64,000 nucleotides of DNA. Origin: Peptococcaceae bacterium CEB3 (lineage in GTDB: Bacteria > Bacillota > Desulfitobacteriia > Desulfitobacteriales > Desulfitobacteriaceae). The DNA is taken from positions 1 through 64,000 of the forward strand of contig LDXJ01000064.1 of the NCBI GenBank assembly GCA_001029295.1, written 5' to 3'. Made by a program: the position numbers and the translations under genes. Positions 10,767-45,007 of this stretch are shown piece by piece; the stretch's first letter is position 1, and every line of letters begins with the position of its first letter. The notes beneath the pieces were generated by a model. It saw nothing but the letters and a program-made list of their open reading frames with translations, was not told the origin of the DNA and ran no database searches.

Positions 10767-11510
10767 ATGCTTACCCAATTTTTGTTGGCCGCTGCGGCTC
10801 TTTCGGTTCTAAAAGGGATCACGCTGCTCGTCTCCTATATTAACAACAGTGCCTTTCCGCAGCCTCTGGCGGAAGCAGAAGAAAGGCGGTACCTGAGCGT
10901 CCTCCATGCCGCCAAAGAGAAGGCAGCAAGGAGCCGTCAGGATGATCTGGAAGTAGAACGCGCCCGCAACATGCTGATTGAACACAATTTGCGCCTGGTG
11001 GCCCACCTGGTTAAGAAATTTGACGGTACGGGCGAGGACACCGACGACCTGATCTCGATCGGGACCATTGGGCTGATCAAGGGGATCAACACTTTCGACC
11101 CAGGCAAAGGCACAAAATTGGCTACCTATGCCGCAAGATGTATCGAAAATGAAATTCTTATGCACTTAAGGTCATTGAAAAAGACGCGCGGGGAAGTGTC
11201 GATTTACGACCCGATTGGGGTGGATAAAGAGGGCAACGAAATAACCCTGATGGACGTTTTGGGTTCCGATGGAGAAGATATTGCCGAGCGGGTGGAAAAC
11301 GAGTTCGAACAGAAGGCGGTCTTGGATAAGGTTAGAAAGCTGAGCCAACGTGAGCGGCTCGTTCTCTCCCTGCGTTATGGTCTGTTGAACAGCCCGCGGC
11401 GGACGCAGAGGGAGATTGCTAAAGCTTTGGGGATATCGCGTTCTTATGTGTCGAGGATCGAGAAGAAGGCGATTCAGAAATTGCTGGAAGAGATGAGCCA
11501 AAACAAGTAG
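10767..11510 (+). CDS. sigK: Sporulation sigma factor sigma-K (pro-sigma-K)
   Basis: Late mother-cell sigma factor of endospore formation. The hydrophobic pro-sequence (about 1-24), then SYINNSAFPQPL, NMLIEHNLRLVAHLVKKFDGTGEDTDDLISIGTIGLIKGI (region 2), KLATYAARCIENEILMHLR and the region 4 helix-turn-helix TQREIAKALGISRSYVSRIEKKA closely match Bacillus SigK. The gene is not split by a skin-like element. Region 1.2-2.1 has about ten extra residues (KEKAARSRQDDLEVE). ATG 10767 has AAGGAGGTGGAAGG upstream. It lies between the two pilus clusters; its presence implies a spore former. Confidence 0.96.
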   Translation: MLTQFLLAAAALSVLKGITLLVSYINNSAFPQPLAEAEERRYLSVLHAAKEKAARSRQDDLEVERARNMLIEHNLRLVAHLVKKFDGTGEDTDDLISIGTIGLIKGINTFDPGKGTKLATYAARCIENEILMHLRSLKKTRGEVSIYDPIGVDKEGNEITLMDVLGSDGEDIAERVENEFEQKAVLDKVRKLSQRERLVLSLRYGLLNSPRRTQREIAKALGISRSYVSRIEKKAIQKLLEEMSQNK

Positions 11511-40963: not shown

Positions 40964-42298
40964 TCAGTTATTCTTGGCTCCCGCCCGGATCCAGTTCTTG
41001 ATGGTCTGGATCTGAGTCTTGGGCAGCGGTGGTTGTCCGAAGGGCATTTGCGGTTGCACACTGCCCGTGATGTGCTGGTAAAGGAGGCTTGTCTCGGGAT
41101 TTCCAGGCGTAACGCGTTTCAATGTTCCGGGATAAGTGGCAATGTTGGCGTGACACTGGAGACAGCTGTTATGGAGAATCGGTTGAATGTCTTTACTGTA
41201 ACTAGGCTGGGCAATGACCCCCGTGCCAGCCAAGGCTTTGGGGACGGAGTTCATTCCTTGATAGGTGAGAAGACCCAATCCCAGCACCAGAACTCCCGCC
41301 AGGCCCAGAGCCAAAGGACGTCGTTTCGCCCGGCGGCTGGGATTGCGGTCGAGCCAGGGCAGGGAAAAGAGGACGACGATTCCGATAAGAGGCAGCCCGA
41401 CCATTGCCAGACCGTCAAGCTTGCCGGGAAAGTATTTGAGAAGTTGGTAAATGCCAAAGAAATACCAAGCCGGCTCCGGCGTGAAATGCGCTTTGTTCAA
41501 GGGGTCGGCAGCCGCGCCCAGGCCTTTGGGATAGAGAGAGGCGATCAGCCACAGGGCCGCGCCCACCAGAAGGACGAATGCGGCCATGCGCAGTGCTACA
41601 TCTGGCCAGAAGGGCCGGGAGATTTTGCGGACATCCTCTCCGCGTGCTTCGGCTTCCTGGAGTTCGTCGGTAGCAGCCATACCCTGTCTCAAAACGAAGA
41701 AGAAATGAGGCACGAAAGCCAGGAGCAAGAGGGCGGGCAAGACGAGCATGTGGACGGCGTAGAAGCGGGTCAAAGTGGCCCCCGTCACCTGGGTGCCGTC
41801 CCGCAAAAGGCGCACGAGAAAGTCTCCCACGACCGGGACGTAGCCGGCCATGGCCGTTCCCACCGTGGTCGCCCAATACCCTTTCTGGTCCCAGGGGAGA
41901 AGATACCCGGTGAAAGCCAAGCCCAGAGTGGCGATCAGTAAGATCCCGCCCATGACCCAGGTCAATTCCCGGGGGCGTTTGTAGGCCGCCGCGAAAAAAA
42001 CACGCAATAAATGCAGCCCGACGAGAACGACCATGAAGTTCGCTCCCCATGAATGCAGGGAACGGACGAAATGACCGGCGACTGAATTTTGCAATGTTTG
42101 AATGCTGGCATAAGCCCCGCTGGCTGACGGATGATAGACCGTGGCCAACAAGATCCCGGTCACCGCTTGGTTAATAAAAGCGAATAAGGTGGCAAAGCCC
42201 AAGTAGTCCAAAAAGTTACTGCGTTTGGGTACGGGGTGGGCAAAAAGAGACTGAAACAGGGACGATGTATGCAGACGTTCATCGAGCCAACCTTTCAT
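40964..42298 (-). CDS. Cytochrome b / subunit IV / cytochrome c fusion of a menaquinol:cytochrome c oxidoreductase
   Basis: 444 residues with three parts. Cytochrome b (1 to about 210) has SLHSWGANFMVVLVGLHLLRVFF and RFYAVHMLVLPALLLLAFVPHFFF with the bis-His haem ligands. A subunit IV region (about 235-330) includes HFTPEPAWYFFGIYQLLKYFPG (PEW-like Qo site, here PEPAW). A C-terminal c-type domain (about 360-444) has CLQCH as the only haem-c motif and QMPFG as the likely Met ligand. In many Firmicutes these are separate genes. The start overlaps the Rieske gene by 4 bases (ATGA). It transfers electrons from menaquinol, through Rieske, to a c-type acceptor at the membrane. Confidence 0.92.
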   Translation of the reverse strand: MKGWLDERLHTSSLFQSLFAHPVPKRSNFLDYLGFATLFAFINQAVTGILLATVYHPSASGAYASIQTLQNSVAGHFVRSLHSWGANFMVVLVGLHLLRVFFAAAYKRPRELTWVMGGILLIATLGLAFTGYLLPWDQKGYWATTVGTAMAGYVPVVGDFLVRLLRDGTQVTGATLTRFYAVHMLVLPALLLLAFVPHFFFVLRQGMAATDELQEAEARGEDVRKISRPFWPDVALRMAAFVLLVGAALWLIASLYPKGLGAAADPLNKAHFTPEPAWYFFGIYQLLKYFPGKLDGLAMVGLPLIGIVVLFSLPWLDRNPSRRAKRRPLALGLAGVLVLGLGLLTYQGMNSVPKALAGTGVIAQPSYSKDIQPILHNSCLQCHANIATYPGTLKRVTPGNPETSLLYQHITGSVQPQMPFGQPPLPKTQIQTIKNWIRAGAKNN

Positions 42299-43797: not shown

Positions 43798-43932
43798 CTA
43801 CCAAGGAATCTGTCCGCGATTCAAAATATCCCGCAGACCGGTTATGATCAGGATCGTGATCGCGAAGGCGGTGAAGGCCAGGGTGGGACCCACATAGGAA
43901 AAGGGAAGCGCGTAACCGATGTAGCCGGTCAT
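43798..43932 (-). CDS. Small membrane protein (44 aa), last gene of a four-gene cassette
   Basis: MTGYIGYALPFSYVGPTLAF continues into one membrane helix and a short basic tail (RDILNRGQIPW). ATG 43932 has AAGGAGG nine bases upstream, a strong site, so translation is likely. I do not recognise the family. It follows three other small membrane-protein genes on the same strand after a 130-base gap that carries no evident terminator. Confidence 0.65.
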   Translation of the reverse strand: MTGYIGYALPFSYVGPTLAFTAFAITILIITGLRDILNRGQIPW

Positions 43933-44062
43933 GGGGTAGTTCCTCCTTTGCCTCCGCCGGGATAAATAGCGCCGGTGTCTGTTGCTGCGACTGGTCTCAG
44001 ACTCGAAGCATCCTAAACATTTTGACATGACACGTCAGCTCTCCGGGTTCTTAAGGCCTTGT

Positions 44063-44476
44063 TTATCGAGCGGGAGCCGCTTTTTCTTTGCCCATTAAGT
44101 CTTGAAATTTGTGGGCGGTCTCGCTGACCGCGGCCCGGAAACCGAGGACGAAAGCCCGCACAAAGAAAAGGGCCAGGCCCAGGTTGAAGACCGTAAAGCC
44201 GAGGGCAATGGGCAGCCTCAGGGTGATGATCCTGACTTGCGTGAAGATATTATCGGGAACGATGGCTTGCTGCACATAAATATGCAAGAGACCGACGGCA
44301 TCAAACCAGAGCCCGAGCATGGTAATCGACCCATCCTTACTGACCGGAACGAATATTTCCATGGCGGTGGAGAGATAGTTGACAGGATCCGGCAGTTGCT
44401 TAAGCCTGTCCTTGAGGCCTGCAGGAGGCTCGCCCGGGGAAAACACCGGAGGAGTCTGAGTCGCTCCCTGTTCCAT
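44063..44476 (-). CDS. Membrane protein of unknown function (about 137 aa)
   Basis: The cytoplasmic N-terminal 40 residues are Pro-rich (PPVFSPGEPPAGLKDRLKQLPDPVNY). They are followed by two or three helices: MLGLWFDAVGLLHIYVQQ, LPIALGFTVFNLGLALFFVRAFVLGF. A charged C-terminus follows (SETAHKFQDLMGKEKAA). ATG 44476 with AAAGGAGG upstream overlaps the stop of the preceding 42-residue gene. No family is recognised. The conserved gene spacing suggests a small membrane complex. Confidence 0.72.
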   Translation of the reverse strand: MEQGATQTPPVFSPGEPPAGLKDRLKQLPDPVNYLSTAMEIFVPVSKDGSITMLGLWFDAVGLLHIYVQQAIVPDNIFTQVRIITLRLPIALGFTVFNLGLALFFVRAFVLGFRAAVSETAHKFQDLMGKEKAAPAR

Positions 44477-44604
44477 CATGTCCTCCTTTCCTGAGGCGGA
44501 AAATACAGCCAAATGAGGATCCGAAAGAGAATGACGAGGATGATGGCGATGAGGATGTTGTACGGGTAGAAAAGGCCGAAATACGTGCTGGGCAAGGAGG
44601 TCAT
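44476..44604 (-). CDS. Small membrane protein (42 aa)
   Basis: A short gene encoding MTSLPSTYFGLFYPYNILIA and then a strongly hydrophobic helix (IILVILFRILIWLYF) ending in PPQERRT. It starts one base after the stop of the 72-residue gene and its TGA overlaps the next ATG, an arrangement typical of genuine translated genes. A G-rich ribosome site lies in front. Unrecognised family. Confidence 0.62.
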   Translation of the reverse strand: MTSLPSTYFGLFYPYNILIAIILVILFRILIWLYFPPQERRT

Positions 44605-44605
44605 C

Positions 44606-44824
44606 CTAAAGTCCCCCCCAAAAGGCATTGCTCAAAGCAAAAGAGAGCAGGAAGGAGAGAGCCAGCCAAAAAAGCCAGTAAAACTGCACCAACCAGAGAA
44701 AGCCGGAGAGAGAAGGGCGAGGGCGGGGCGGCTGGACCTGAGGACAGGAAACGGATTGCTGGGACGGGGGCCCGTAAGAAGGCGGCCCCTGTGTTCGATA
44801 CGGTCTGCCGGTGTAGAAGCCCAC
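44606..44824 (-). CDS. Small membrane protein (72 aa) with proline-rich N-terminus
   Basis: The N-terminus is Pro/Gln/Ser rich (RPYRTQGPPSYGPPSQQSV) and the C-terminal half is a hydrophobic hairpin with many aromatics (FLWLVQFYWLFWLALSFLLSFALSNAFW). GTG 44824 has GAGGGGG eight bases upstream. It is the first gene of the cassette 44824-43798. Unrecognised. Confidence 0.58.
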   Translation of the reverse strand: MGFYTGRPYRTQGPPSYGPPSQQSVSCPQVQPPRPRPSLSGFLWLVQFYWLFWLALSFLLSFALSNAFWGGL

Positions 44825-44965
44825 CGAATTTCCCCCTCTCTCTCAATGACTCTGAACTTTATCCATAATATGTAAGAGGGGAAGCGGGGGTTCCGGCACA
44901 AAGCCGCCGGTAAGCGCCGGATTCGACATCCTCCGCGTTTTTGAGCTTTCCCTTCCGCTGAACCT

Positions 44966-45007
44966 CCCCATGGCTGAAGCCGGCTAGAGCCGGCTTCAGC
45001 CATGGGG
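44966..45007. repeat. Perfect 20-bp inverted repeat (long hairpin)
   Basis: Arms begin CCCCATGGCTGAAGCC and pair perfectly over 20 bases with a 2-nt loop. It lies between the four-gene cassette and the CBS gene. There is no T tract on either side. Such hairpins often derive from ends of IS200/IS605-type elements; a role in RNA processing is also possible. Confidence 0.8.

Follow-up and report, generated by a model that had tools for sequence, protein, structure and literature searches.

Four very short open reading frames lie close together in a 64,000-nucleotide stretch of DNA from Peptococcaceae bacterium CEB3 (contig LDXJ01000064.1, positions 1 to 64,000; hereafter, the window), and we asked whether they are genuine genes and, if so, what kind of membrane system they could encode. 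A first-pass annotation had described them as a cassette of small membrane proteins, all read in one direction, resembling a small membrane complex of unknown function next to the bc complex. The coordinates agree exactly with that description, running from the stop codon of gene D at 43798 to the GTG start of gene A at 44824, and all four genes are on the minus strand. Gene A (44606..44824, 72 aa) encodes a proline-rich N-terminus and one transmembrane helix with a QxYWxxWL motif; gene B (44476..44604, 42 aa) encodes a YxGxFYPYN motif followed by one transmembrane helix; gene C (44063..44476 or 44479), which has two adjacent ATGs at its start and hence a product of 137 or 138 aa, encodes a predicted four-strand beta domain, one transmembrane helix and a basic tail; and gene D (43798..43932, 44 aa) encodes one transmembrane helix, with the C-terminus predicted to be inside, and a conserved C-terminal Trp. 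Hydropathy thus gives one helix per protein, and the two proline-rich N-termini that had been reported belong to A and C. The tight packing first reported applies to two of the three junctions, A-B (a gap of 1 base) and B-C (an ATGA overlap), whereas 130 nt separate C and D. AAAGGAGG ribosome sites precede genes C and D, as had been noted. Further upstream, between a CBS-domain gene and gene A, is a long perfect palindrome (ccccatggctgaagccggct / agccggcttcagccatgggg; 44966..45007) that has no T-run and is not kept at full length in Acididesulfobacillus acetoxydans.

All four frames are present, in unchanged order, in A. acetoxydans (NZ_LR746496), where an insertion of ~90 bp with a repeated AAGTTAAGTTCCCG segment lies between B and C. 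Comparison of the window with this genome gave dN/dS values (Nei-Gojobori) of 0.18 for A, 0.50 for B (a value based on few changes), 0.21 for C and 0.30 for D, and every finite value among the remaining pairs fell within 0.02-0.41. All four genes are under purifying selection. The first-pass annotation had named a lack of conservation, or equal synonymous and non-synonymous change in relatives, as grounds for dropping the cassette, and neither was seen. That the frames might instead be spurious or decaying is suggested by how short they are and by probable decayed copies of C, carrying internal stops, in two genomes (G033:C42:204104-204324 and G014:C3:4741052-4741228); set against dN/dS below 1 in all four genes, the ribosome sites and conservation across the order, this explanation is almost certainly wrong. 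Because they are kept in A. acetoxydans, have dN/dS values below 1 and belong to four families that recur together, A-D are more than chance frames.

A gene C profile matched 27/73 genomes of the order (the Desulfosporosinus/Desulfitobacterium group), and an improved profile of the C domain returned the identical set. Roughly one in three genomes of the order thus has the cassette, which is therefore dispensable. A sample of 398 genomes from the phylum gave no convincing match outside the order (two candidates, in G218 and G410, were dismissed as weak or fragmentary, the former being without A, B and D), and a plasmid search gave no match. Across the window and 28 fetched loci, all four profiles matched at a common place, so that the quartet recognised in one genome proved to be a set found together at the loci examined, co-occurring and co-linear over three taxonomic families of the order. 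Apparently missing members coincide with contig ends, the sole exception being a diverged B at one locus (L060). The gene order is ABCD in the majority, BCDA in four and CABD in two. Gene C itself comes in two subtypes, with the domain either single or, in many relatives, in tandem; one genome (L054) has both subtypes side by side, adjoining a DUF421 gene and germination genes of the ger type. The strict co-occurrence and co-linearity fit well with the small membrane complex first proposed, from which we infer that the four products may act together.

The neighbouring bc complex had been offered as a clue to function. In this genus, the bc genes lie ~1 kb downstream of the cassette on the same strand, as would suit A-D being accessory small subunits of the cytochrome b/Rieske complex. 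However, a plus-strand acyl-ACP thioesterase gene intervenes, and cytochrome b and Rieske genes flank the cassette only in two Acididesulfobacillus genomes and are near no other cassette; a Rieske match at two further loci (L066/L067) was rejected as a bc link, as it belongs to an FAD oxidoreductase. Synteny largely refutes the accessory-subunit explanation, which we regard as very improbable, and the adjacency appears to be a local coincidence: because the bc complex adjoins the cassette only within the genus, it is probably irrelevant to it. The cytochrome b of the window (40964..42298, minus strand), whose gene adjoins the Rieske gene, has a C-terminal extension with a c-type haem motif (CLQCH). 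Cassette neighbours in general are mostly metabolic and not conserved, with no dominant theme; two neighbour proteins in other genomes match the ADP-ribosyltransferase domain PF03496.

Searches of Pfam, NCBIfam and PDB sequences with the cassette proteins found no relative and no significant match, and the Pfam/NCBIfam comparison includes named sporulation families such as GerP, YjcZ and SpoIIIA. The largest product, that of gene C, consists from N- to C-terminus of a proline-rich stretch, four predicted strands, one transmembrane helix and a basic helical tail. The four-strand pattern is common to the alignment and a low-confidence AlphaFold model; the model, built from three sequences (pLDDT 54), is weak, we claim no fold from it, and a Foldseek search with it returned nothing at E<=0.001. 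D is predicted to have its C-terminus inside in 27/29 cases, and C tends to the same orientation. The description of these proteins as being of unknown function stands insofar as they match no named family, but the sequences upstream of the cassette suggest expression of the sigma-K sporulation class.

The regions upstream of the first gene have a common motif, far above shuffled sequence. In the window, a putative sigma-K-type promoter, ACCCCCGCTTCCCCTCTTACATATTATG (AC-N17-CATATTATG; 44864..44891, minus strand), lies 39 nt before gene A and is kept in A. acetoxydans. An AC occurs 16 or 17 nt ahead of a [CA]ATAWWAT[GA] core in 19/19 ABCD loci (expected ~0.8 per offset), with the -10 core positioned without reference to the AC; these loci are all the testable ABCD cassettes and, being related, do not represent 19 independent events. 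The loose form of the motif, AC-N16/17-[CA]ATAnnnT[GA], precedes 19/19 ABCD cassettes and 9/234 other genes in the same loci, and the strict form 16/19 and 3/234, respectively. All 19 cassettes therefore have the sigma-K arrangement of a -35 AC and a CATAnnnTA-like -10 at a spacing of 16-17 nt; the first -10 position is A or C, and the last is mostly G, versus the canonical A.

The promoters of sigma-E and sigma-K in C. difficile have a common -10 and are distinguished by a -35 of ATA and AC, respectively (PMC3789822). The cassette-type motif was found ahead of yabG in 0/30 cases and ahead of spoIVA in 0/30; in this order, yabG is preceded by ATATGCC..CATA and sigK by GGATAAGCA..CATA, both with the other type of -35, and GGATAAGCA is SpoIIID-like. 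Because the cassette has the AC-type -35, as opposed to the other type seen ahead of yabG and sigK, its placement in the sigma-K promoter class is well supported by sequence, the comparison being with the C. difficile promoters (CotJA, considered as a sigma-K positive control, is nearly absent and was unusable). We consider it likely that the cassette is expressed in the sigma-K class. Other genes have related upstream sequences: many relatives have a gene for an SDH/ClpP-like protease behind AC-N15-GGAATAWWATG (L151, L152, L157, L158, L161, L162, L166, L170, L171, L177 and L178), which suggests a late-sporulation protease, and DUF2935 proteins, whose genes also adjoin two cassettes, are encoded behind the cassette-type pattern at L154 and L155.

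A different sigma factor with a similar -10 might instead drive a vegetative or general-stress membrane complex that has no sporulation role. The BCDA, CABD and truncated loci mostly have no clear site before the first gene, the enrichment of the promoter pattern across genomes is modest (74 matches vs 40 in the control for the family, about 2-fold, and 7 vs 7, not above control, for the window's own genome), and the metabolic, unconserved neighbours would also suit such a complex. Against it are the -35 AC at 16-17 nt in every ABCD locus, in close agreement with sigma-K, and the absence of the cassette from a non-sporulating genus. Spores have been described for the genus (PMC8982180), and the curated cut-off of the SigK model is exceeded in 57/73 genomes of the order, among them that of the window (sigK, 10794..11495, plus strand, in the same window) and 25/27 cassette genomes; the remaining two (G031 and G063) have only SigE-level matches to this model. 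The non-sporulating genus (g16) has neither the cassette nor SpoIVA, YabG and SigK, which is weak evidence for a sporulation link, as it comprises five genomes in a single genus. Weighing these points, we consider a vegetative or stress role unlikely.

We therefore favor, as a reasonably probable reading of the sequence evidence, a lineage-specific late-sporulation operon for a membrane complex, probably located in the outer forespore membrane. After engulfment, mother-cell sigma-K RNA polymerase would transcribe A-B-C-D, as the promoter sequence suggests, and the four single-pass proteins would enter a membrane derived from the mother cell, of which the outer forespore membrane is the likeliest; residence of the complex in a membrane surrounding the forespore has, in our estimate, about an even chance. 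There, A-D may assemble as a hetero-oligomer, as their co-occurrence and gene order suggest. By the positive-inside rule, the small beta domain of C would face the intermembrane or cortex side, while the C-termini of C and D would point towards the mother-cell cytoplasm, the site of coat assembly. The complex could then stand between membrane, cortex and coat as a module for envelope assembly or permeability, and its role may lie in an assembly link, in permeability or in germination. In its most specific form, the proposal is of a dedicated complex with four subunits, confined to this order of spore-forming sulfate reducers and dehalogenators and seated in the outer forespore membrane, where the undescribed beta domain of C and three one-helix partners would link cortex to coat or control the passage of solutes; in that form it is tentative and rather doubtful. 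A late mother-cell promoter type and very small hydrophobic proteins would also suit a sporulation-linked, membrane-active module that is not a structural spore complex, for instance one that permeabilizes or lyses the mother cell at spore release, but four distinct co-conserved proteins and an often-duplicated beta domain in C exceed the needs of a simple pore, and we hold this to be improbable.

Spore envelopes have been little explored outside Bacillus and C. difficile, and this would give the proposed late-sporulation operon its interest. A conserved quartet in which three proteins have fewer than 75 residues is easily overlooked, and a readable late-sporulation promoter combined with an undescribed domain family provides a concrete entry point to these envelopes. 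More generally, comparative sequence analysis can place small-ORF operons in a developmental regulon.

Several known sporulation systems resemble the proposed complex in part. SpoIIIAA-AH, like the complex proposed for the cassette, is encoded by several genes, belongs to a mother-cell membrane and includes some small subunits, but it depends on sigma-E, occurs in nearly all spore formers and contains an ATPase, whereas the cassette is restricted to one order and is without an ATPase. Proteins of the YjcZ type, SpoVM and CmpA are very small, hydrophobic or membrane-associated and linked to sporulation, again as proposed here; the cassette differs in combining four distinct proteins as a constant set, without a Pfam or NCBIfam match. 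GerP proteins, unlike A-D, are not single-helix membrane proteins. The gerP operon of Bacillus, implicated in germinant access to receptors (PMC2817736), is similar to the cassette in encoding several small proteins, although those of the cassette match no Pfam family. In its promoter arrangement, AC-N16/17-CATA, the cassette resembles the sigma-K regulon known from Clostridioides difficile and from Bacillus (cotA, cotE, sleC, yabG and others), from which it departs in its mostly G final -10 base and in proteins outside the named families; lineage-specific spore-surface genes are typical of this regulon (PMC3789822, PMC10681294). Although it matches no named family tested, the cassette would by analogy work like the known sigma-K envelope operons.
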